The notes beneath the pieces are model-generated. The model saw only the letters and a list, made by a program, of their open reading frames with translations. It was not told where the DNA came from and ran no database searches. This document shows positions 6,504 to 30,379 of a DNA stretch of 64,000 nucleotides, piece after piece. Position 1 is the first letter of the stretch. Each line of letters opens with the position of its first letter. The stretch lies in the NCBI GenBank assembly GCA_937884605.1, contig CALGDM010000006.1, positions 1 through 64,000 on the forward strand, written 5' to 3'. Made by a program: the position numbers and the translations under genes. Source of the stretch: an uncultured Spiribacter sp. GTDB lineage: Bacteria; Pseudomonadota; Gammaproteobacteria; Nitrococcales; Nitrococcaceae.

Positions 6504-7006
6504 GCGCTTTCCCGGGCGAGAACCACGACCATCAGCGCTGTATTGATGACGCGCTGGGCGAGGCCGAACGGCTGTGTCTGCAGCGCGGCCGCCGACTCAC
6601 GCCACTGCGCCGGCGTGTGCTTGAGCTGATCTGGGAGAGCCATCAGCCGGTCAAGGCCTATGATCTGCTGGCGCGACTGCGTCAGGGCTCGGCATCGGCG
6701 GCCCCGCCAACGGTGTATCGCACGCTGGATTTTCTGATGGCCGAGCGATTCGTCCACCGGCTGGCGTCGATCAATGCCTACGTGGGCTGCGGGCATCCCG
6801 AACACAGCCACAATGGGCAGTTCCTGATCTGCCGCTATTGCCATCGGGTGGCCGAGCTTGACGATCACTCCATCGAGGCGGCACTGGATCAGCGCGCCGG
6901 CGACCTGGGCTTTGTCCAGTTGGAGCAGACCGTCGAAATCGAGGGCATCTGTCCACGCTGCCGCGCCCGGCTGGATGGGGACAACGCCCCGACATCCATG
7001 GAGTGA
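6500..7006 (+). CDS. zur: Zinc-responsive Fur-family regulator Zur
   Basis: A 168-aa Fur-family repressor. The winged-helix DNA-binding domain spans about 25-90, with PPTVYRTLDFLM as the recognition helix region. Two CxxC pairs, C111/C114 and C151/C154, form the structural zinc site. The block HRLASINAYVGCGHPEHSH is more like Zur than Fur, so zinc-uptake control is the likely role. No Zur operator is recognised nearby. It overlaps tsaB and is followed 4 bp later by an M23 peptidase gene. Confidence 0.85.
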   Translation: MSAFPGENHDHQRCIDDALGEAERLCLQRGRRLTPLRRRVLELIWESHQPVKAYDLLARLRQGSASAAPPTVYRTLDFLMAERFVHRLASINAYVGCGHPEHSHNGQFLICRYCHRVAELDDHSIEAALDQRAGDLGFVQLEQTVEIEGICPRCRARLDGDNAPTSME

Positions 7007-20994: not shown

Positions 20995-21414
20995 ATGAGA
21001 GCAGAGCCCGTTATCCCCAAGCAAGAGCTCCTGCAGATTCTCGAAGACAATCCATTCGAGCACCTCTCGAGCAGCGTCCACGTCATGGATAACCAGCGCG
21101 GCAGCGGCCATGAGCTGGCCGGCGTATCGTTGTACTCCAACGCCCGCGGCTGGATGGCACAGGTCAACTGGCGGGCAATTGTCGACGCCGACGAAATCAC
21201 GCTTCGCGTCGGCGATGGCGACAGTGGGGAACGCGCCTACGAACTGCGCGATGCGGATCACTTTCGTCTCGCCGTCGGTGACGATGGCGGCGATCCGGTC
21301 AGCGCCGACGAAGTCTCGGCACTGGTGGCCCAGTCGCCACTCGCCAAGAGCTGGGAGGAAGACGTCGTGGGCGTACTCAAGGAGTCCCGCGAGCGCCAGG
21401 CAACCGTGCACTGA
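20995..21414 (+). CDS. Conserved-looking protein of unknown function
   Basis: A predicted soluble protein of 139 aa that begins MRAEPVIPKQELLQILEDNP. It is acidic, with no membrane span or signal peptide. A beta-rich middle (GVSLYSNARGWMAQVNWRAI, then DEITLRVGDGDSG) is followed by an acidic C-terminal helix. ATG at 20995 is preferred because AGGTGG lies just upstream and the putative -10 box would lie too near the other in-frame ATG at 20965. I do not recognise the family. It is followed at once by the uracil-DNA-glycosylase-like gene. Confidence 0.65.
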   Translation: MRAEPVIPKQELLQILEDNPFEHLSSSVHVMDNQRGSGHELAGVSLYSNARGWMAQVNWRAIVDADEITLRVGDGDSGERAYELRDADHFRLAVGDDGGDPVSADEVSALVAQSPLAKSWEEDVVGVLKESRERQATVH

Positions 21415-21415
21415 C

Positions 21416-22096
21416 GTGCGGAGCTTGCCCGGCGCCCTGCGCGAACGCTTTCGCACGGCGGCCGCCGAGCTGACCGGCCGTGATGACGCGGTCTATGCCG
21501 CCGCCGGCCGCGATCCGGCGGAGCCGGTTTTTGGTCTGGGGCCGGCGGATGCCGACATCGCCTTTTTTGGTCGGGATCCGGGGCGCGACGAGGTGCACAT
21601 CGGCGTGCCCTTCATTGGCGCCGGTGGTCGTCAGGTCCGCCGGGTGCTCCACGAGCGCCAGTTCCATGCCCCCCTCACCGACACCGCCGGGGCGCTGGCA
21701 GCGGGAGAGGCCTATTTCTGGGCCAATACCGTCCCCTACAAACCCGTCGGCAACAAGGCCTGGCCCATGAAGGTCAAACGCCGCTTTCAGCCGCTGGTCG
21801 CCGAGCTGCTGCTCGATCAGTGGCAGGGGCGCGAGGTGATTACCCTCGGGCGCGAGGCCTTTTTCTGGTTTGGGCTTGACCAGCCGCCGGCGGAGCGGCG
21901 CCGGCTGGAAGATCATTGGCAGCTTGACGAGCGCTTCACGGCGTCCATCGAGATGGATTTCTGTGGCCCGGACGGGGTTCGCCGGCCGCTGCGGTTGCAT
22001 CCGCTGCCGCATCCTTCGCCGCTCAATGCCACCTGGTTCAAGCGCTTCCCGGGCCTGCTGGCGGCGCGTCTGGACGCGCTGGAGGGTCGGCCATGA
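21416..22096 (+). CDS. Uracil-DNA glycosylase superfamily protein
   Basis: A 226-aa protein with a GTG start one base after the previous stop. Two superfamily motifs are visible: IAFFGRDPGRDEVHIGVPFI, which corresponds to the GExPG...GxPF active-site block, and HPLPHPSPLNATW, the HPSP-type motif. The residue after the first Gly differs from classic family 4 enzymes (GRDPG rather than GEAPG), so the base specificity may differ. No clear Cys quartet for a 4Fe-4S cluster is seen. It overlaps the creatininase gene by 4 bp. Confidence 0.72.
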   Translation: MRSLPGALRERFRTAAAELTGRDDAVYAAAGRDPAEPVFGLGPADADIAFFGRDPGRDEVHIGVPFIGAGGRQVRRVLHERQFHAPLTDTAGALAAGEAYFWANTVPYKPVGNKAWPMKVKRRFQPLVAELLLDQWQGREVITLGREAFFWFGLDQPPAERRRLEDHWQLDERFTASIEMDFCGPDGVRRPLRLHPLPHPSPLNATWFKRFPGLLAARLDALEGRP

Positions 22097-22902
22097 GCGC
22101 CCACGACTGGGCCGACCACACCAGCCATTCCCTGCGCGGCGACATCAGCGAGGCAAGCGTCGCGCTGCTGCCGCTGGGTGCGATCGAGCAGCACGGCGGT
22201 CATTTGCCGCTTGCCACTGACACCTGGATTGCCGAGGGGCTATCGAAGGCGGCGATGCAGCGCTGTGATGAGCGGGTGCACCTACTGCGGATGCCCACGC
22301 AGGCGTTGGGACAGGGCCTTGAGCACATGGACTGGGCCGGCACTCTGGCCCTGTCCCCGGCCACCTTCGAGGCAATGCTCTATGATCTGGGCGCGTCGTT
22401 GGCCCGGGCCGGGGTGCGCCGGGTTGTGATGTTCTCCGCCCATGGCGGCAATCTCGCCACAGTCGCCACGGCCGCGCTGCGCCTGCGGCGGGACTTTGGT
22501 CTGCTGGTGGTGCAGACCTGCTATTTCGACTTTCCGCCCCCTGCCGATGCATTAACCGCCCGTGAGGCGCGCGAAGGATTGCATGGCGGGGCGCTGGAGA
22601 CTGCCTTGATGTGGCATTTTGCGCCGCAACAGGTGGTGCCGAGCGCGATCGACCATCACGCGTCGGTGGAATTCGAGGCGCTTTCGGCGTTCGAGTGGAT
22701 CGGTGCTGAGACGCGCCCGGCCCGGTTCGCCTGGCTGGCCGGCGATCTCAACCCCGCCGGGGTGTGCGGTGATGCGCGGGTGGCGGATGCGGCGCTTGGC
22801 GCCCGTCTGGCGGCGCACTACGCGGAGGCACTGGCAGCCATTGTGACCGAGGCGGCGGACTTTCCCCTGGATTGCCTGTCGCCGCCGGCCCCCGGGGGCT
22901 AG
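22093..22902 (+). CDS. Creatininase-family amidohydrolase
   Basis: A 269-aa metal-dependent hydrolase. Metal ligands match the family: E32/H34/D43 in GAIEQHGGHLPLATD, H117 in SAHGGN, and a Glu in HGGALETAL. The superfamily includes creatininase, the mycofactocin protein MftE and the archaeal ArfB deformylase that acts on a GTP-derived formamidopyrimidine. It converges with, and overlaps by 4 bp, a GTP cyclohydrolase II gene. A role in the neighbouring GTP-derived pathway is therefore possible but unproven. No mycofactocin genes are present. Confidence 0.85.
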   Translation: MSAHDWADHTSHSLRGDISEASVALLPLGAIEQHGGHLPLATDTWIAEGLSKAAMQRCDERVHLLRMPTQALGQGLEHMDWAGTLALSPATFEAMLYDLGASLARAGVRRVVMFSAHGGNLATVATAALRLRRDFGLLVVQTCYFDFPPPADALTAREAREGLHGGALETALMWHFAPQQVVPSAIDHHASVEFEALSAFEWIGAETRPARFAWLAGDLNPAGVCGDARVADAALGARLAAHYAEALAAIVTEAADFPLDCLSPPAPGG

Positions 22903-24011
22903 CGGGACTGCTCGCCCACCGATCCCGAGACGACATCATCGAGCCAATGGCCCGCCCGCTCGGCCTTGGTGGTCAGGTAGCGCTCGTTGTGGCGGTTGAG
23001 TGCGCCATGAACCGCTTCGCGACCAGCGATCTCGATGCCGTGCCGTTCGAGGGCCGCGATCTTGCCCGGGTTGTTGGTCATTAACCGAACCCGACCGATT
23101 CCCAGGTCATCGAGCATGGCCGCGGCCACCTCGTAACGGCGTTCATCCGCGCCGAATCCCAGCAACCGATCGGCGTCGACGGTGTCGAGGCCTGTGTCCT
23201 GAAGCCCGTAGGCCCGCAGTTTATTGGCAAGGCCAATGCCGCGACCTTCCTGAGCCAGGTAGAGCAGGATGCCGCCCCCTTCCTCCGCGATCGTGCCCAC
23301 CGCACTGCGCAGCTGCTCGCCGCAATCACAGCGCAGTGACCCGAACAGATCCCCGGTGAGGCAGGCTGAGTGCATGCGCAGCGCCGGCGTGTCCGGCCAC
23401 TGCTCGGGATCGCCCACCATTAACGCGACATGCTCGAGCAACCCGTCCGCCTCGCGATAGAGGATGAACCGCGATTGCTCGGAGTCGGTCAGCGGGACCC
23501 GCGCTTCGCTGATCCGCTCGGGTTGCCGGGCGTTTTCGATACCCGCTGCGTGGATGTCCGCGACGTCAACCGACAGGATCTCGCCATTGCGGATTTCATC
23601 GCCCAGCCGGTCATCGCCATCGCGGGTGTCAATCGCTACGAGTGCCGGCATCAGGGTAGCCTGGCGGGCGAGGTCAAGCGCCGCCTGCTCGTCGGCGCGC
23701 GTGTTGCGGGCCGCCGGCCGGGCGCTGCGGGTGGTGAGATCGCCGGCCAGCGTAACGGCCGTCTCGACGCTGTCATGCGCATCCAGCGTCACGGCCAGAT
23801 CCTCGCCGGGGACGGTCTCCATGCCGATGGCGCGGGCGCGGTGGCGGGTCATCAGCAACCGTGCCTCTCCCGACGCCAGCGCTCGCGCCCGGGTCATCAG
23901 TCCATCGCTGAGGTTTTCCAGCGCCAGCACCAGCATCCCGCCGGCGGGGTGGGTTACGTGGACGGGTTCGCCCCGCCTGAGGTCGATCAGTGCGCGCCGG
24001 ATGCGCTGCAT
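22899..24011 (-). CDS. ribA: GTP cyclohydrolase II with degenerate RibB-like N-terminal domain
   Basis: A 370-aa protein. The C-terminal half is a complete GCH II: zinc cysteines C217, C228 and C230 in HSACLTGD/SLRCDCG, QEGRGIGLANKLRAYGLQD with Y268, and TNNPGK. It opens GTP and releases formate and pyrophosphate. The N-terminal 160 residues resemble RibB in the opening ALIDLRRGEPVHV but lack the acidic DDEDRENE and the RPGH and GHTE motifs, so DHBP synthase activity is not expected. GGAGCAGGC precedes the ATG. It is divergent from the RibD-type reductase gene by 62 bp. Confidence 0.88.
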   Translation of the reverse strand: MQRIRRALIDLRRGEPVHVTHPAGGMLVLALENLSDGLMTRARALASGEARLLMTRHRARAIGMETVPGEDLAVTLDAHDSVETAVTLAGDLTTRSARPAARNTRADEQAALDLARQATLMPALVAIDTRDGDDRLGDEIRNGEILSVDVADIHAAGIENARQPERISEARVPLTDSEQSRFILYREADGLLEHVALMVGDPEQWPDTPALRMHSACLTGDLFGSLRCDCGEQLRSAVGTIAEEGGGILLYLAQEGRGIGLANKLRAYGLQDTGLDTVDADRLLGFGADERRYEVAAAMLDDLGIGRVRLMTNNPGKIAALERHGIEIAGREAVHGALNRHNERYLTTKAERAGHWLDDVVSGSVGEQSR

Positions 24012-24073
24012 GCCTGCTCCTTGGAATCGATTTCTCGCAATAGACCGTTCATGCCTGTAACAATTCCATCAAC

Positions 24074-24895
24074 ATGACACAGCATAACCGATCGCGGGAG
24101 AGCAGCTCACCGTCGACGGGCTGGGAGGCACTTGTTGCCCAGTGCCGTCGCGACGCCCTGCCGGCTGCAACGCCACCGACGGCTTGTCCGGCGGACATCG
24201 ACGGTCTCGGCGCCGACGCCGTCGGGCCGGCACTGCAGGCGCGCTACGCGCCGTTGCTGGCTCCGGTCCAGCAACGGCCACGGGTGGTCGCGCAGCTTGG
24301 ACAAAGCCTCGACGGGCGGATCGCAACCGCCAGCGGGCATTCCCATTACGTGACCGGCGCCGCCGACCGGGCCCACCTGCATCGCCTGCGGGCGCTCTGC
24401 GACGCGGTACTGGTCGGGGCCGGGACCGTGGCGGCGGATAATCCCCGTTTGACCGTTCGCGAAGTGCCGGGGCCCAACCCGCGGCGCGCGGTGGTCATGA
24501 GTCGTCCGGGGCTGCCGGCCGACGCGGCGCTCTTTCGGGATGGCGCCGCCCCCACCTGGGCGCTGACGGGTCCGTCGGTGTCTGCACCGGCGGTGGATCG
24601 CGGCTTTGCACTGCCCGATCTGGCACCGGCCACCGTGCTCGAGTGCCTGGCGGCGGCCGGTATCCAGCGGTTGCTGGTGGAGGGCGGGGCCCAGACCGTT
24701 TCGGCATGGCTCGCGGCCGGGCTGGTGGATACGCTCTATCTGGTGGTCGCGCCGGTGATTATCGGGGCCGGGCCGACCGGCCTGAACCTGCCGGGCATCG
24801 ATCACATGGACCAGGCCCTGCGCCCTGCGGTCACCCCCTTCGACCTGGGGGATGACCGGCTCTACCGGCTTGACTTCAGCGCCGTAACAGCATGA
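24074..24895 (+). CDS. RibD C-terminal-domain (pyrimidine reductase) protein without deaminase domain
   Basis: A 273-aa dihydrofolate-reductase-like protein. The RibD_C domain begins near residue 70: VVAQLGQSLDGRIATASGHS, VGAGTVAADNPRLTVR and LLVEGGAQTVSAWL are typical NADPH-reductase blocks. The N-terminal 68 residues show no deaminase zinc motif. It would reduce a ribosylaminopyrimidine phosphate, or a related compound. It faces the GCH II gene across 62 bp, and its last 20 bp overlap the convergent flippase-like gene. Confidence 0.85.
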   Translation: MTQHNRSRESSSPSTGWEALVAQCRRDALPAATPPTACPADIDGLGADAVGPALQARYAPLLAPVQQRPRVVAQLGQSLDGRIATASGHSHYVTGAADRAHLHRLRALCDAVLVGAGTVAADNPRLTVREVPGPNPRRAVVMSRPGLPADAALFRDGAAPTWALTGPSVSAPAVDRGFALPDLAPATVLECLAAAGIQRLLVEGGAQTVSAWLAAGLVDTLYLVVAPVIIGAGPTGLNLPGIDHMDQALRPAVTPFDLGDDRLYRLDFSAVTA

Positions 24896-25754
24896 TCAGC
24901 CCGGGGGTGCTGGCTGCCAGTGACAGTGCGCCGTAGAGCACCGCGGCGGTGATGCCTTCGGCCGCCGGCAGTCCGGCCAGCGGCCAGAGCAGGGCGGCCG
25001 CTCCCTCGCGCAGCCCCCATCCCGCGATGCTCGCGGGGATCAGCATGGTGAATAGAACCAGCGGGATCAGTGGCAGCCAGCTTGACGCCGGTGCCGCCGG
25101 ATCCAGCGCCAGAACACAGCAGGCATAGACGCCAATATAGCTGGCGGCGACGGCGAGGGAGGCGGCCAGCTGGACGGGCAGCACCCGCGGAGCAAGCAGC
25201 GCCGACTGCATCGCGCGGCCCCAGTCACTGAGCCCGGCGCGTCGGTGACGCGGAATCAGACGGATGGCGATGATCACCGCCGCGGCCACGCCCACGGTCA
25301 GCGACAGGCCGCCCCAGGAAACTGGCAGACTCAACGCGCCGCCGGGTGGCGACCATACCCACACGCCCACCGCGATCGCCACCATCGCGAGCTGTCCCGA
25401 TAGACGCTCGATGACAACGGCCTGAAAGGCCGGTCCCCGACGCGGCATCTCCTGACTATGGCGCCAGGCGCGCTGGGCGTCGCCGATGACACCGCCGGGC
25501 AGCACCTGATTGACCAGTGTGGCCAGATAGTACTCGCCAACCGCCCGGCCCGCCGGCAGCGCAATCTGCAGCCGGGCGGCGGTAAACTGCCAGCGCCACG
25601 CCGACAGAAGCACCTGGGCGACGGTGATGGAAAGCGCCATGATCATCCAGCCCGGCTGGATGGCCTGCAGCCGCTCGAGCACACCGGCCCCGAACTGTTG
25701 GGCAACCAGGCCCAGAATGGCGAGGCTGATCAGCAGTCGAATCAGTCGCGGCAC
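24876..25754 (-). CDS. Lysylphosphatidylglycerol synthase TM-region/AglD-like (UPF0104) membrane protein
   Basis: A 292-aa integral membrane protein with about eight spans. NQVLPGGVIGDAQRAWRH, VIERLSGQLAM and GWGLREGAAALLWPL are the usual signatures of this family. Related domains are the flippase part of MprF and archaeal AglD, and are linked to moving or modifying lipids. It is the last gene of a five-gene minus-strand run that includes a methyltransferase and a glycosyltransferase, overlapping the former by 13 bp. Its substrate is unknown. Confidence 0.82.
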   Translation of the reverse strand: MPRLIRLLISLAILGLVAQQFGAGVLERLQAIQPGWMIMALSITVAQVLLSAWRWQFTAARLQIALPAGRAVGEYYLATLVNQVLPGGVIGDAQRAWRHSQEMPRRGPAFQAVVIERLSGQLAMVAIAVGVWVWSPPGGALSLPVSWGGLSLTVGVAAAVIIAIRLIPRHRRAGLSDWGRAMQSALLAPRVLPVQLAASLAVAASYIGVYACCVLALDPAAPASSWLPLIPLVLFTMLIPASIAGWGLREGAAALLWPLAGLPAAEGITAAVLYGALSLAASTPGLIMLLRR

Positions 25755-26563
25755 GGAATAACCAGCAGATCCTGATGCCCGACCGTGATGAAACTGCGCT
25801 CGAGAAGGCGCAGACGCTCGTCCCGCCAGCGATCGATGGCGGCCGCTGCGTCGGGTTGCTGGGTCCGGGCGGCTTCATGCCAGCCTTCGATGAGGGGCCG
25901 TTGCAGCGCCGCCTGTTCAGGGGTGAGCTGCCAGTCACTGGGCCGGCAATGGACGTCTGCGCCGCGCTCGCGGAATAACTGCGCCGCAACGGCGGGGGCA
26001 TCCGGGCCCAGTGCCGGCCCCATGTCCTTGGCACCGCGCTGGTGGGCAAGGACCGCGGCCGCGACCTGCCAGTCACCCTCCAGCGTGGGTGAAAACGCCA
26101 GTCGCCCGTCCACGCTGAGGGCAAACAGGGCCGGCAGGCACCGCCGGCAGCAGGTGTCCACCACCCGCCGCAGCCAGTCCTCGGAGACCAGATCCAGCAG
26201 TGCCGAGGCGGTGAGCAGATCAGGTGGGGTGTCGAGGCAGTCGGGAAAGCCCCCCAGATCGGCCGTTTGGGCCCGCGCCTGAACCCGCGCTGCAGCGCCG
26301 TCATCATCGGCCGGATGCGCCATGGCCACGGCCTGGTCCAGCAGTTCGCGGTCGTGATCGATGAGCGTCCACTCCTGCGCCTGGGGCAGGCGCGGACCCA
26401 GATAGCGCAGGTTGCTGCCGGCGCCGGCGCCCAGATCGCTGATCCGGATCGTTCGGTCCCGGGGCAAAGCGTCGATCAGGGCACTGAGCAGCGTGTCGTC
26501 GCGGGCCGCATGGTCAGCCGGTTCACGCAGGGTCAGCCAGCGGGCGGCGAATTGCTCGGGCAT
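25742..26563 (-). CDS. Class I SAM-dependent methyltransferase
   Basis: A 273-aa protein with the SAM-binding motif ISDLGAGAGSNLRYL near residues 41-55 and the acidic end of beta-2 in LIDHDRELLD. LTASALLDLVSEDWL lies at the motif IV/post-I region. The substrate cannot be told from sequence. It overlaps the glycosyltransferase gene by 31 bp and the flippase-like gene by 13 bp, which strongly suggests joint expression with the surrounding pathway genes. Confidence 0.85.
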   Translation of the reverse strand: MPEQFAARWLTLREPADHAARDDTLLSALIDALPRDRTIRISDLGAGAGSNLRYLGPRLPQAQEWTLIDHDRELLDQAVAMAHPADDDGAAARVQARAQTADLGGFPDCLDTPPDLLTASALLDLVSEDWLRRVVDTCCRRCLPALFALSVDGRLAFSPTLEGDWQVAAAVLAHQRGAKDMGPALGPDAPAVAAQLFRERGADVHCRPSDWQLTPEQAALQRPLIEGWHEAARTQQPDAAAAIDRWRDERLRLLERSFITVGHQDLLVIPCRD

Positions 26564-27609
26564 GGTGATGCCTCCTCGATAAGAGCCATGAAAAGCGCGA
26601 CGCTCTGATCCCAGTCATTGAGCTGACGGCGAGCGCGACGGGCGCCCCGGGCCAGGGCCCGACGCCGGGGGTGAGCATCCAGCAGATCGGCGATGGCATC
26701 GCGCAGCGCTGCCGGGTCATCCGGCGGGACGGCAATGCCCGCCTCCGGCGGAAGCGTGGTTGCAAGGGCGCCGCCGGTGGTGGTGATCACCGGCAGACCA
26801 TAGGCGATGGCCTCGCTGATCACCATGCCGTAGCCCTCGTAGACCGACGGCAGGACGAACAGGTCGGCGTGGCGATAGGCCGCGTCAAGGCGCTGCTCAT
26901 CCGCGGCGCCGTTGATCGAGACGCGATCCCTCAGGCCCTGGGCATCGCGCTGCCTCGCCACGGCAGCGGCATAGTCGGGATCCAGCTCTGACGAGCCGAT
27001 GAGCTGACACTCCCAGGACCGGTCGACAACCCCGGCAAGTGCCTCGATCAGGTGGTGCTGAGCCTTGCGCGGCGTAATGGACGCCACACAGAGCAGCAAG
27101 GGCGGCTGCCCCGGGCGTCCCGTGGCGAGGGGGCGCGGCGTGCATCCGGGCGGGATCACGTCGACTTCGCCGTGATGCAAACCCAGCGCGTTCAAACGCC
27201 GGGCGGTGAAGGCGCTGGTGGCGATAACGCGGGTTGCCACGTCCAGGGCCCGGGTTTCGTCACTGATCAATTGCTGCACCCGGGCGGGATCAACACCGGT
27301 TTCGTCGGCGAGGGGATGATGAACCAGCGCATGAATGCGGAGGCGTCCGGCATGGGGTTTGACGGCCGCCGCCAGCCTGCCCAGCACCAGACCGTCAATC
27401 ACCACCACCCGGCCGTCGGGGATTCGCGCAAGCGCACCATCCACGGCCTGACGGGCGGTGGCATCGGCATCGGGAAAGCAGCCGGGCAGCTCGTCGACGT
27501 GGACTGCGAGGCCCGCGGCGCGCAGGCCGTCGATGATCCGGCGGTCATACCGACTGCCCCCGGTGGGGCGGTCCAGCGACCCCGGCACCAGGAAATGGCA
27601 GGCGGTCAC
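26533..27609 (-). CDS. GT4-family glycosyltransferase
   Basis: A 358-aa GT-B glycosyltransferase. The N-terminal domain has the short GGSRYDRRIIDGL loop. The C-terminal domain has LLCVASITPRKAQHHLIEAL and the EX7E-like motif in YEGYGMVISEAIAYGLPVI, which binds the sugar-nucleotide phosphate. No signal peptide or membrane span is seen, so it works in the cytoplasm. The acceptor is unknown; the neighbours suggest a small molecule derived from GTP or a lipid carrier. It overlaps the PTPS-like gene by 4 bp. Confidence 0.88.
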   Translation of the reverse strand: MTACHFLVPGSLDRPTGGSRYDRRIIDGLRAAGLAVHVDELPGCFPDADATARQAVDGALARIPDGRVVVIDGLVLGRLAAAVKPHAGRLRIHALVHHPLADETGVDPARVQQLISDETRALDVATRVIATSAFTARRLNALGLHHGEVDVIPPGCTPRPLATGRPGQPPLLLCVASITPRKAQHHLIEALAGVVDRSWECQLIGSSELDPDYAAAVARQRDAQGLRDRVSINGAADEQRLDAAYRHADLFVLPSVYEGYGMVISEAIAYGLPVITTTGGALATTLPPEAGIAVPPDDPAALRDAIADLLDAHPRRRALARGARRARRQLNDWDQSVALFMALIEEASPCPSNSPPAG

Positions 27610-28010
27610 AGCTGGAGCGAGCGCTCGTAGGCGGCCGAGGCGATATGCGACTCGTGCAGGGTGATGCGCAGCCGATCCAGGGTCCGGGCGGTTTCGCCCA
27701 GCTCACCGGCATGAATGGCGGTCGCCAGCGCGTCGGCGATATGCCGGGCGAGGAACTCCGTGGTGGTGTTGACGCCCTCGAACTCCGGCAGGCTGTCGAG
27801 GTTGGTGAGGTTGTAGCGGCCCAGAATGTCATGCAGCACCGTGCTGGCGCGGGCAATGTCGACGACGACATTGTCGTCATCGAGCCGGTCACGAAAAAAC
27901 GTGGCATCGGTGACATAGGTGGCGCCGTGGAGGGCCTGGGCCGGCCCGAATGTCTCGCCCTGAAAGCTGTGGGCAATCATGAAGTGATCGCGAACGTTGA
28001 CGCGGTACAT
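27606..28010 (-). CDS. 6-pyruvoyltetrahydropterin synthase/QueD-like protein with altered active site
   Basis: A 134-aa T-fold protein aligned end to end with QueD. Of the three zinc histidines, H14 and H28 remain but the third is A30 (LHGATY instead of HGH). The catalytic Cys position is A24, and the Asp-His pair of the catalytic triad is replaced in YNLTNL. The substrate-anchoring Glu (E120 in LHESH) is kept. It may bind a pterin without the usual reaction or catalyse something new. It lies 9 bp after the dehydrogenase gene. Confidence 0.8.
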   Translation of the reverse strand: MYRVNVRDHFMIAHSFQGETFGPAQALHGATYVTDATFFRDRLDDDNVVVDIARASTVLHDILGRYNLTNLDSLPEFEGVNTTTEFLARHIADALATAIHAGELGETARTLDRLRITLHESHIASAAYERSLQL

Positions 28011-28019
28011 GCTATCTCC

Positions 28020-28994
28020 TTAATACTTGATGCGGTGGCAGAGGCCCGGCTGGGTGACGATGCTGTCCATCGCCGCGGGCAGGTCATCGAATGCGGTTTC
28101 GCCGTCGATCAGGCAATCCCAGTGGGCGCGGTGGGCGAGCAGCTCGAGGGCCTTGCGCATGCGCCGGCCGTGGTCCCAGCGCGGGCGCATGGCCGGGGCG
28201 AGCTGCCCGACCTGGCTGGCGCGCAGGGCCAGACGGCCCGAGTGAAAGGCTTCGCCCAGCGGCACCCGTGGCGAGCGGTCACCAAACCAGCTGGCCTCGA
28301 TCACCACGGCCTCGTCCGCGGCAATCTCCAGAGCCAGGGCGAGGCCGGCCTCGCTGGCGCTGGCGTGGATGACCCGATCATTGTCAGGGCGCGCCGCATC
28401 GGGCGCCGTGAAGGCGACGCCCAGCTGTGCGGCGAGTTGCCGGCGATCGGGATTGATGTCCACCAACTCCACCTCGGTGCCGGGCATTTCGGCGCAAAGG
28501 GCTGCAGCCAGGGCGCCCACCACGCCCGCGCCGATCACGCTGATGCGCTCGCCGGCACGGGGCTCGGCGTCCCAGCAGATATTCAGGGCCGTTTCGACAT
28601 TGGCGGCCAGTACGGCACGCTCGGGCGGCAGGTCAGCCGGTAGCGGATAGGCGGCGGCCGCCGGCACGGTGTAACGGCGCTGGTGGGGGTAGAGGCAGAA
28701 CACCGTCTGCCCGATCAGCGTTTCGGGGCCGGCGTCGATCACGCCGACACTCGCGTAGCCGTACTTGACCGGTGCCGGAAAATCCCCCGCCTGGAAGGGT
28801 GCCCGCATGCGGGTCTGCTGGCTGTCGGGAATGCGGCCCTGCCAGACCAGCGATTCGGTGCCATGGCTGATGCCTGAGTAGAGAGCGCGAACGCCCACCG
28901 ACTCCGCCCCCACGGCGGGGACCGCTTCGTCTTGAATCTCGCCGCTGCGCGGCGCCACGACCCAGAAGGCCTGGCTGCTCTGCTGGCTGGTCAC
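28020..28994 (-). CDS. MDR-family (zinc-binding alcohol dehydrogenase-like) oxidoreductase
   Basis: A 324-aa medium-chain dehydrogenase. The Rossmann motif is VIGAGVVGALAAAL and the family block ALYSGISHGTESLVWQG lies near residue 40. The usual structural-zinc cysteine cluster and the catalytic Cys of alcohol dehydrogenases are absent, so it may be zinc-independent. It is the first gene of the minus-strand run (dehydrogenase, PTPS-like, GT4, methyltransferase, flippase-like) and is divergent from the CDP-alcohol transferase gene by 60 bp. Confidence 0.82.
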   Translation of the reverse strand: MTSQQSSQAFWVVAPRSGEIQDEAVPAVGAESVGVRALYSGISHGTESLVWQGRIPDSQQTRMRAPFQAGDFPAPVKYGYASVGVIDAGPETLIGQTVFCLYPHQRRYTVPAAAAYPLPADLPPERAVLAANVETALNICWDAEPRAGERISVIGAGVVGALAAALCAEMPGTEVELVDINPDRRQLAAQLGVAFTAPDAARPDNDRVIHASASEAGLALALEIAADEAVVIEASWFGDRSPRVPLGEAFHSGRLALRASQVGQLAPAMRPRWDHGRRMRKALELLAHRAHWDCLIDGETAFDDLPAAMDSIVTQPGLCHRIKY

Positions 28995-29054
28995 GCCGAT
29001 GCTGTCCTCATGCTGCTAGAATCCGGGAATTGACTCGGAAACCGGAGCGTAGCA

Positions 29055-29771
29055 TTGGTTCCTCCCGCGACCGACGATTCGCCACTGCAGATCCTGCCCG
29101 ATTTGCTGGTGGCTGCCATTGTGCTGACGGCGGCGGCTGGCGGGCTGCAGCAGGCACTGGATTTGCCCGCGGGCGTACTGCCGCTGGCGCTTGCCGCCTA
29201 CACGGCGCTGGCTCTGCTGGTCTGGCGTCTGTTGGGCAACCGGGCGCTGACGCCGGCCGATCGGGTGACCATGGGGCGCGGCCTGCTGGTGATGCTGCTG
29301 ATCGGGCTTCTGCCCGCCGCCGGCACCGGTCCGAACGTGGCCATGTTGCCCTTCGCGGTTGGCATGACGGCATTTCTGCTCGATGGTGTCGACGGCTGGG
29401 TCGCACGACGCCTGGGATGCCAGACCGCCGCGGGCGCCCGCTTTGATATGGAACTGGATGCCGTTCTGCTGCTGGTGCTGACGCTGTGGCTGCTACGGCT
29501 TGATCTGGCGGGCGCCTGGGTCCTGGCCATCGGCGCTTGGCGCTATGCATTCATCCTTGCAGGTTACTGGCGTCCTGCGCTGCGCCGGCCTCTGCCGCCT
29601 TCGCAGCGCCGCCGGATGATCTGCGGGGTTCAGACCGGCGCCCTGGTGGTATTGCTGGCACCGGATTTTCCGACGCTCTGGGTCGCGCCTGTGGCTGCCG
29701 TGCTGCTGATCCTGCTCAGCTATTCCTTTATCGTGGATGGGGTCGCGTTATGGCGGCCCGCCGATCATTGA
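29055..29771 (+). CDS. CDP-alcohol phosphatidyltransferase
   Basis: A 238-aa membrane protein with a perfect family motif: DGVDGWVAR, then eight residues, G, three residues, D, three residues, D (LLDGVDGWVARRLG then GARFDMELD). These enzymes transfer a phosphoalcohol from a CDP-alcohol to another alcohol. The N-terminus has two or three extra spans. TTG at 29055 is chosen because GGAG lies eight bases upstream. The alcohol acceptor is unknown. It is followed 11 bp later by yceI. Confidence 0.86.
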   Translation: MVPPATDDSPLQILPDLLVAAIVLTAAAGGLQQALDLPAGVLPLALAAYTALALLVWRLLGNRALTPADRVTMGRGLLVMLLIGLLPAAGTGPNVAMLPFAVGMTAFLLDGVDGWVARRLGCQTAAGARFDMELDAVLLLVLTLWLLRLDLAGAWVLAIGAWRYAFILAGYWRPALRRPLPPSQRRRMICGVQTGALVVLLAPDFPTLWVAPVAAVLLILLSYSFIVDGVALWRPADH

Positions 29772-29782
29772 GGAGATCTCTC

Positions 29783-30379
29783 ATGCTTCGACAGTTGATG
29801 CGCTCGACGGCCCTGCTGGTTGTGCTGGGCCTGATGTCGACACCGATCCAGGCCGAGCCGGAGCGCTTTCGGCTGGATGAAAGCCATATCAGCGTTGGCT
29901 TTCTGATCGGGCATGCCCGTTTCGCTGATGTTCTTGGTCAGTTCACCGATGTCAGCGGTGGCTTCCGCTACGACGCCGAGACCCGGACATTGCATTCGGG
30001 ACGGGTTGAAGTGGCCGCTGCCAGTGTCTTTACCGGCCACGACGAACGCGATGGTCATGTGCGTGACGATGACTTTCTGGCGGCGGACGCCCATCCGGCG
30101 ATTGTCTTCGAGGCCAGCGGCTACGAGCCCACGGGCGAGCGCGAGGGGATCCTGCGCGGCGAGCTGACCCTGCTCGGGGTGACGCGGCCCATCGAGCTGG
30201 ATCTGACCCTCAACCGGCGTGGCGCCCATCCCATTGGCGGTGCCGACACCCTGGGCGGGTCGGCGCGGGGCGCGATCCGGCGCAGCGAATTCGGCATGGA
30301 TTACGGGCTCGAGGGGGATCTGGTGGGTGACCGCGTCGAGCTGATCATCGAGTTCGAAGCCATCCGTCAGGATGACTGA
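29783..30379 (+). CDS. yceI: YceI-family periplasmic lipocalin-like protein
   Basis: A 198-aa exported protein. The signal peptide ends near residue 24 (TPIQA). The mature part has the YceI pattern: FRLDESHISVGFLIGH, DERDGHVRDDDFL, and a conserved ending with SEFGMDYGLEGDLVGDRVEL. YceI proteins have a lipocalin-like barrel that can hold polyisoprenoids. AGGAG lies seven bases before ATG 29783; the frame upstream is read-through of the previous gene. It overlaps the patatin gene by 8 bp. Confidence 0.9.
   Translation: MLRQLMRSTALLVVLGLMSTPIQAEPERFRLDESHISVGFLIGHARFADVLGQFTDVSGGFRYDAETRTLHSGRVEVAAASVFTGHDERDGHVRDDDFLAADAHPAIVFEASGYEPTGEREGILRGELTLLGVTRPIELDLTLNRRGAHPIGGADTLGGSARGAIRRSEFGMDYGLEGDLVGDRVELIIEFEAIRQDD

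Follow-up and report, generated by a model that had tools for sequence, protein, structure and literature searches.

A conserved gene cluster of Spiribacter joining GTP cyclohydrolase II and a PTPS-IV protein, with a possible role in envelope or membrane-lipid assembly

The stretch of DNA analyzed here (the window; 64,000 nucleotides of contig CALGDM010000006.1 from an uncultured Spiribacter sp.) belongs to a 1.8 Mb genome in 30 contigs. It carries ten adjacent genes at 22093-30379, all of which had been listed in an original prediction made from the window and were confirmed by their coordinates and family scores in open reading frame (ORF) and family-profile searches. Nine of the ten form one conserved cluster and most likely serve one pathway, because the same set and order recur in three phyla and the flanking genes are not conserved. 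The pathway is proposed, with about an even chance of being right, to draw on GTP through dedicated first steps of riboflavin synthesis and to feed a ribityl-pyrimidine into envelope or membrane-lipid assembly. The computed support consists of the conserved unit, intact signature residues, an additional GTP cyclohydrolase II (GCH II) and the co-occurrence of an LtaS-like membrane protein encoded elsewhere in the genome.

Conservation was assessed by scanning named genomes with the 6-pyruvoyltetrahydropterin synthase (PTPS)-like protein of the window, which gave at least 583 relatives; the best 80 (L019-L098) were compared. Addition of 115 loci from further genomes and of the window, less 4 duplicates, gave 192 loci, of which 155 have at least 7 kb on both sides of the PTPS gene and are termed well covered. 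As 71 of the 115 added loci come from the order of Actinoplanes and the named 80 were chosen for their high similarity, the resulting frequencies are biased. The best 80 relatives belong to Actinomycetota, Pseudomonadota (alpha, beta and gamma) and Gemmatimonadota, plus one metagenome-assembled genome (MAG) of Myxococcota. The closest named matches are Ectothiorhodospiraceae MAGs and one isolate of that family (L019-L021).

The order MDR (medium-chain dehydrogenase/reductase), PTPS, GT4 glycosyltransferase, methyltransferase and flippase-like protein recurs in Actinomycetota, Pseudomonadota and Gemmatimonadota, with GCH II, RibD, CDP-alcohol phosphatidyltransferase and creatininase genes around it. 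Among the best 80 of at least 583 relatives, MDR and GT4 were each found in 79 loci, the methyltransferase in 76, CDP-alcohol phosphatidyltransferase in 71, the flippase in 64, GCH II in 59, creatininase in 45 and YceI in 14; the count for RibD (42) is an underestimate since Halomonas copies were missed. The well-covered loci gave MDR 153, GT4 151, methyltransferase 138, flippase and CDP-alcohol phosphatidyltransferase 127 each, GCH II 113, RibD 104, creatininase 69 and YceI 19. As a control, the UDG, patatin, PRK and ProQ genes that flank the cluster in the window were each found in one of the 80 loci, that of the nearest relative, L019. Chance neighborhood was rejected on the basis of this control and of the order and content seen in 80 and then 192 loci. 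The check across distant genomes that had been suggested with the original prediction therefore showed that the genes stay together, and the unity of the pathway, which it had put forward as inference, is now the most likely case. Its ten-gene set stood for nine members. The tenth, YceI (ORF 29537-30379, plus strand, real start probably near 29780; PF04264, 121 bits), is a loose companion only.

Within the window, four genes on the minus strand form an overlapping run: the flippase-like and methyltransferase genes share 13 bases, the methyltransferase and GT4 genes 31, and the GT4 and PTPS genes 4. Five genes had been placed in this run, but the fifth, MDR, lies 9 bases upstream of PTPS.

The PTPS-like protein (27606-28010, minus strand; PF01242, 76 bits) is 60% identical to SCO6650 of Streptomyces coelicolor (PDB 3d7j, E = 5.6e-48), which the PDB names uncharacterized. 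In 191 of 192 loci the protein retains two of the three zinc histidines as well as the anchoring glutamate, the remaining row being a gap. The third histidine is alanine in 191 of the 192, again with one gap, and the window reads HGA instead of HGH. With the two histidines and the glutamate kept and the third histidine lost, the sequence fits a T-fold protein that would bind a pterin- or pyrimidine-like ligand without PTPS chemistry. The paper on the 3d7j structure is said to take much the same view of SCO6650. Canonical PTPS or QueD, for which the motif is given as CxxxHGH or CxxxxxHGH in a review (PMC5041015), was rejected on the HGA reading and on a QueD model score of 35.7 of 89 bits. The window protein carries FGPAQ, exact in 184 of the 192 loci; this signature marks the PTPS-IV group within the COG0720 family, as described in the section on that group in the AGeNNT paper (PMC5445326). 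By its sequence the protein is PTPS-IV. The same section recorded PF00925 and PF01872 genes as PTPS-IV neighbors in 2017; both families are present in the window, and they occur in 113 and 104 of the 155 loci, respectively. That section names these two neighbors only, calls PF00925 GTP cyclohydrolase I/FolE2 and gives no function.

The PF00925 gene of the window is a GCH II paralog (22899-24011, minus strand; 192 bits), which scored 328 bits with NF006456, under the 464-bit cut-off. It keeps the three zinc cysteines, present in 129 of 130 aligned cluster GCH II rows (the remaining row is a gap), and Tyr268, the counterpart of E. coli Tyr105. According to what is reported of Spoonamore et al. 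2006, this tyrosine decides whether the diaminopyrimidine APy or the formamidopyrimidine FAPy is formed, and the window enzyme is accordingly predicted from its sequence to form APy. An N-terminal extension of about 165 residues (23517-24011, minus strand) also occurs in the copies from Gram-negative bacteria, and most actinobacterial copies have a short one or none; it is perhaps a decayed 3,4-dihydroxy-2-butanone 4-phosphate (DHBP) synthase domain.

At the switch position the well-covered loci with GCH II have Tyr in 61 cases, Met in 31, His in 18 and Gln in 2. A creatininase-family gene was found in all 51 non-Tyr loci versus 13 of 61 Tyr loci. The pairing held in the named set (28 of 28 versus 7 of 19) and in the unnamed set (23 of 23 versus 5 of 41), the window being the remaining Tyr locus, with a creatininase. 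One of the 112 loci was dropped as it lacks MDR or GT4, and Fisher's test on the other 111 gave P = 1.7e-19. Each trait changes three times on the tree, which leaves two independent pairs on supported branches and three on all branches; a sign test is unable to reach 0.05 because there are only two to three such pairs. Strict as the rule is, few events underlie it; it is open to testing with purified enzymes.

The creatininase-family hydrolase of the window (22093-22902, plus strand; PF02633, 199 bits) had been listed correctly; to this is added that one bacterial member of its superfamily, BrbF, is known to be a FAPy formamidase. BrbF is described for alphaproteobacteria in PMC9478397. Because BrbF is known and the pairing is 51 of 51, the sequences suggest that the creatininases of non-Tyr clusters are FAPy formamidases (deformylases). 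The window copy belongs to a different clade, found with Tyr-type GCH II and mostly in Gram-negative genomes. Mean identity between the creatininases of Tyr and non-Tyr loci is 31.5%, against 53% and 70% within the groups (16 and 55 loci, with 5 further loci ungrouped). Unlike the pairing expected for a formamidase, which would accompany a cyclohydrolase lacking the tyrosine, the window creatininase pairs with a Tyr-type GCH II. No match to ArfB was obtained for it with the NCBIfam models, and three relatives from other clusters reached 20-37 of 180 bits with the ArfB model, the Streptomyces relative scoring 36.7. The cluster resembles the route of archaeal ArfA-ArfB-ArfC and bacterial BrbF, which leads from GTP by way of FAPy to APy and on to ribityl-pyrimidine, in having a creatininase-family protein like the formamidase and a reductase-only RibD. 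It differs in that the first enzyme is GCH II rather than GCH III, with Tyr in the window. Moreover, the window creatininase is set apart from ArfB by model score and likened to BrbF by superfamily only.

The RibD protein (24074-24895, plus strand; PF01872, 144 bits) consists of the C-terminal reductase domain without the deaminase domain. Its nearest solved sequence is 6p8c (E = 1.5e-27), named 2,5-diamino-6-ribosylamino-4(3H)-pyrimidinone 5'-phosphate reductase. A canonical RibA is encoded separately from the cluster GCH II in the window genome (L001:1420-2031, minus strand), as is a RibBA-like protein (L003:883-2037) whose GCH II half, judged by eye, seems to lack the zinc cysteines. The cluster GCH II is therefore additional to the housekeeping RibA. 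Exactly two RibD_C copies were found in all four of the other, non-actinobacterial carriers examined. These extra copies add weight to the GTP-derived start that had been predicted.

A role of the cluster in deazaflavin (F420) or riboflavin supply was weighed against these data. The early enzymes are common to flavin and F420 synthesis, and CofH was over its cut-off in three of three actinobacterial carriers. PTPS-IV has also been tied to F420, on the basis of unpublished work, in the review PMC5041015. Nevertheless, none of the 17 proteobacterial carriers, window genome included, has CofH over the cut-off; six of them gave matches far below it (E = 3.6e-9 to 6e-4), and so did E. coli. An F420 role was rejected for proteobacteria on this ground, and F420 is not a general role of PTPS-IV because these carriers lack CofH over the cut-off. 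Since the methyl, glycosyl and lipid enzymes also have no known place in either synthesis and a housekeeping RibA is present, supply of either compound is very improbable.

The MDR-type dehydrogenase (28020-28994, minus strand) is weakly BchC/Tdh-like. It scored 19.7 bits with PF00107, under the 31.8-bit cut-off, and 39.8 and 39.4 bits with the NCBIfam models Tdh and bchC, both far under theirs; it apparently lacks the catalytic zinc motif. The class I methyltransferase (25742-26563, minus strand), dependent on S-adenosylmethionine (SAM), was assigned from its model (predicted local distance difference test, pLDDT, 95) and Foldseek, where all 50 rows shown were methyltransferases of many kinds, with PF13649 at 23.3 bits, under the 27-bit cut-off. 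The GT4 glycosyltransferase (26533-27609, minus strand) matched PF13692 with 100 bits. The flippase-like UPF0104/LPG_synthase_TM membrane protein (24876-25754, minus strand; PF03706, 126 bits) has 292 residues and consists of the transmembrane domain alone. Identity as an MprF lysyl-phosphatidylglycerol synthase was rejected, the C-terminal synthase domain being absent and the MprF model reaching 22 of 600 bits.

The CDP-alcohol phosphatidyltransferase (29055-29771, plus strand; PF01066, 50 bits) carries the complete motif DxxDGxxAR(8)GxxxDxxxD, the residues of which are invariant in 40 aligned members. Its model has a pLDDT of 93, and the nearest fold is PgsA, 7drj, with template modeling (TM) scores of 0.58/0.71 for chain A (E = 1.4e-3) and 0.59/0.74 for chain B. 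PgsA transfers a phosphatidyl group from CDP-diacylglycerol to a polyol phosphate. By analogy, ribityl 5'-phosphate might suit the acceptor site of the cluster enzyme. An ORF at 29008-29550 on the minus strand, antisense to this gene, was rejected as a gene, being of odd composition and without a family match.

A membrane protein encoded outside the core set was found to accompany the cluster. It has 535 residues in the window genome and 579 in L097, with an N-terminal membrane part seen by eye. From a PF00884 match in 9 of 12 members (E up to 1, best 5.2e-7) and a GDH motif, its divergent sequence family is read as a putative relative of the LtaS/OpgB head-group transferases. The window-genome copy shows 41% identity and has the GDH motif. 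In 63 of 192 loci the partner is encoded in the sequence retrieved around the cluster, frequently beside the CDP-alcohol phosphatidyltransferase gene; the latter is present in 53 of 55 partner-bearing loci versus 74 of 100 partner-free ones. In the window genome it is unlinked, about 100 kb from the cluster (G000:C6:128784-130292; L217:1501-3009), directly upstream of an ORF resembling, by eye, a UbiH-type flavin adenine dinucleotide (FAD) monooxygenase.

Among 59 relatives, the partner was found in 23 of 23 cluster carriers versus 2 of 36 non-carriers (P = 2e-14), weak PTPS matches (E = 2.4e-5 to 6.2e-7), seen in five genomes, having been scored as absent. The two partner-only genomes are G008, 74% complete, and G043, 97% complete. 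Of 298 genomes in the order of Actinoplanes, 92 have both, 4 the cluster only, 5 the partner only and 197 neither (P = 4e-65); these Fisher P-values, like that for the 59 relatives, ignore genome kinship. In 24 of the 92 the partner and the cluster lie more than 40 kb apart or on separate contigs, although assembly breaks may account for a part of these cases. Because the LtaS-like membrane partner tracks the cluster even when unlinked, an envelope or lipid product is favored, and this co-occurrence is the strongest argument for a product that reaches the envelope. The lipid linkage that had been offered as a "perhaps" has gained weight from it. As a separate observation, the partner adjoins an extra MdoG (periplasmic glucan) gene at G458:C5:39704-42961 and G017:C1:2062853-2066220; MdoG was found in none of five tested genomes of the window's genus, window genome included.

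From the family memberships we infer the reactions, their order and the lipid link as follows. GCH II would open GTP and yield APy, and the reductase-only RibD would convert the ribosyl group of APy to ribityl, the pathway halting before riboflavin. PTPS-IV and MDR might then rearrange or oxidize the ribityl-pyrimidine, possibly to a pterin-like ring, which the methyltransferase and GT4 would decorate. The PgsA-like enzyme would couple CDP-diacylglycerol with the sugar-alcohol moiety. The flippase-like protein would then translocate the lipid, and the LtaS-like enzyme would act on it outside the membrane. A GTP-derived pterin as the product, the site of its methylation and glycosylation, and the lipid linkage are likewise predictions. 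A further step, proposed tentatively and with the probability somewhat against it, is that the product represents a new class of lipid or envelope substituent found in several phyla. It would bear a methylated, glycosylated ribityl-pyrimidine or pterin head group from GTP, made by GCH II, RibD and PTPS-IV, fixed to lipid by the PgsA-like enzyme and passed on outside the membrane by the LtaS-like one.

The product might instead be a soluble or secreted pterin or pyrimidine glycoside (pigment, cofactor or signal). In that case the CDP-alcohol enzyme would yield a soluble phosphodiester, and export would be the sole task of the membrane proteins. MDR, GT4 and the methyltransferase are indeed steadier members of the 155 loci than the CDP-alcohol enzyme and flippase, as such a product would suggest. 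However, an LtaS-like membrane enzyme tracks the cluster and when linked often adjoins the CDP-alcohol gene, whose nearest fold, PgsA, uses CDP-diacylglycerol. A soluble product is thus a serious candidate but an unlikely one.

Several observations weigh against the proposed route to the envelope. RibD is absent from 51 of the 155 loci, GCH II from 42, and the CDP-alcohol enzyme and flippase from 28 each; such genomes must draw on other copies or do without the step. In Tyr-type clusters, the window's included, the creatininase has no assigned step. The PgsA match is weak by E-value, with none under 0.001, and neither the fold comparison of the methyltransferase nor the generic GT4 carries a substrate hint. 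The first member of the partner family has no PF00884 match, and a PDB search with the partner gave nothing significant, the lipoteichoic acid primase 4uop (E = 0.21) ranking among chance matches. The neglect of kinship in the co-occurrence tests belongs here too.

The same gene absences, and the partial set in the sole Myxococcota locus, would also suit two or more separate pathways side by side, one making a nucleotide-derived cofactor and the other an unrelated glycolipid. That locus, L024, holds MDR, PTPS, flippase and RibD, and a further search also gave CDP-alcohol and LtaS-like matches. Separate pathways are nevertheless improbable: MDR, PTPS-IV, GT4 and methyltransferase genes adjoin one another in a constant order across three phyla, 30 of the 42 loci without cluster GCH II still have RibD, and the membrane partner co-occurs even when unlinked. 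The proposed envelope or lipid product is the better supported reading.

In S. coelicolor, the SCO6650-SCO6655 region appears to be the corresponding cluster. The gene order in the Streptomyces loci L076 and L096 (CDP-alcohol enzyme, MDR, PTPS, GT4, methyltransferase, flippase, creatininase, GCH II) fits the numbering 6650-6655, from which the numbers of the genes other than SCO6650 are deduced by analogy. At the switch position, the cluster GCH II of Streptomyces carries Met and that of the window Tyr. SCO6655, the GCH II of S. coelicolor, reportedly stops at FAPy (Spoonamore et al. 2006). The Streptomyces loci mostly lack RibD, whereas the window has RibD, YceI and a creatininase from a different clade. 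SCO6652, presumably the cluster methyltransferase to judge from its position, is listed in Table 3 of PMC3610822 among the most induced genes of uncharacterized function in the second mycelium, with log2 ratios of 0.8, 4.3 and 4.1 at 24, 48 and 72 h. This suggests developmental use of the cluster in S. coelicolor. SCO6655 also appears in a list of anticorrelated genes in PMC2853524.

The PTPS-IV marker was found, with the center genome counted in each case, in 27 of 398 sampled genomes of the window's phylum, 10 of 396 from the phylum to which Streptomyces L033 belongs, 12 of 274 from the class that includes Methyloversatilis L089 and 96 of 298 from the order (Mycobacteriales in GTDB) that includes Actinoplanes L038. 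In the window's genus, with small assemblies of 1.2-2.2 Mb, 13 of 14 genomes have it, the exception being 74% complete. Despite this prevalence, no product of the cluster was found in the literature searched, most subscription journals and supplements lying outside the search. The description of the locus as undescribed goes too far, the PTPS-IV member, its structure and the GCH II/RibD neighborhood being already in print. The cluster is made of ordinary parts, is a truly conserved unit and is already partly published; new here are the fuller gene list, a partner whose co-occurrence hints at the envelope, and the switch-residue/creatininase rule.

Other recurrent neighbors in the 80 loci were judged to be mostly shadow reading frames or families in at most 10 loci. 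A UDG-superfamily gene (21110-22096, plus strand) overlaps the creatininase gene by 4 bases in the window and accompanies the cluster in one of the 80 loci only. Of the 192 loci, 18 have an FkbM-family methyltransferase gene close to the cluster (for example L070:16217-17041, minus strand), and 9 have a cytochrome b561-like gene with a weak NCBIfam match there (for example L097:15789-16544, minus strand).

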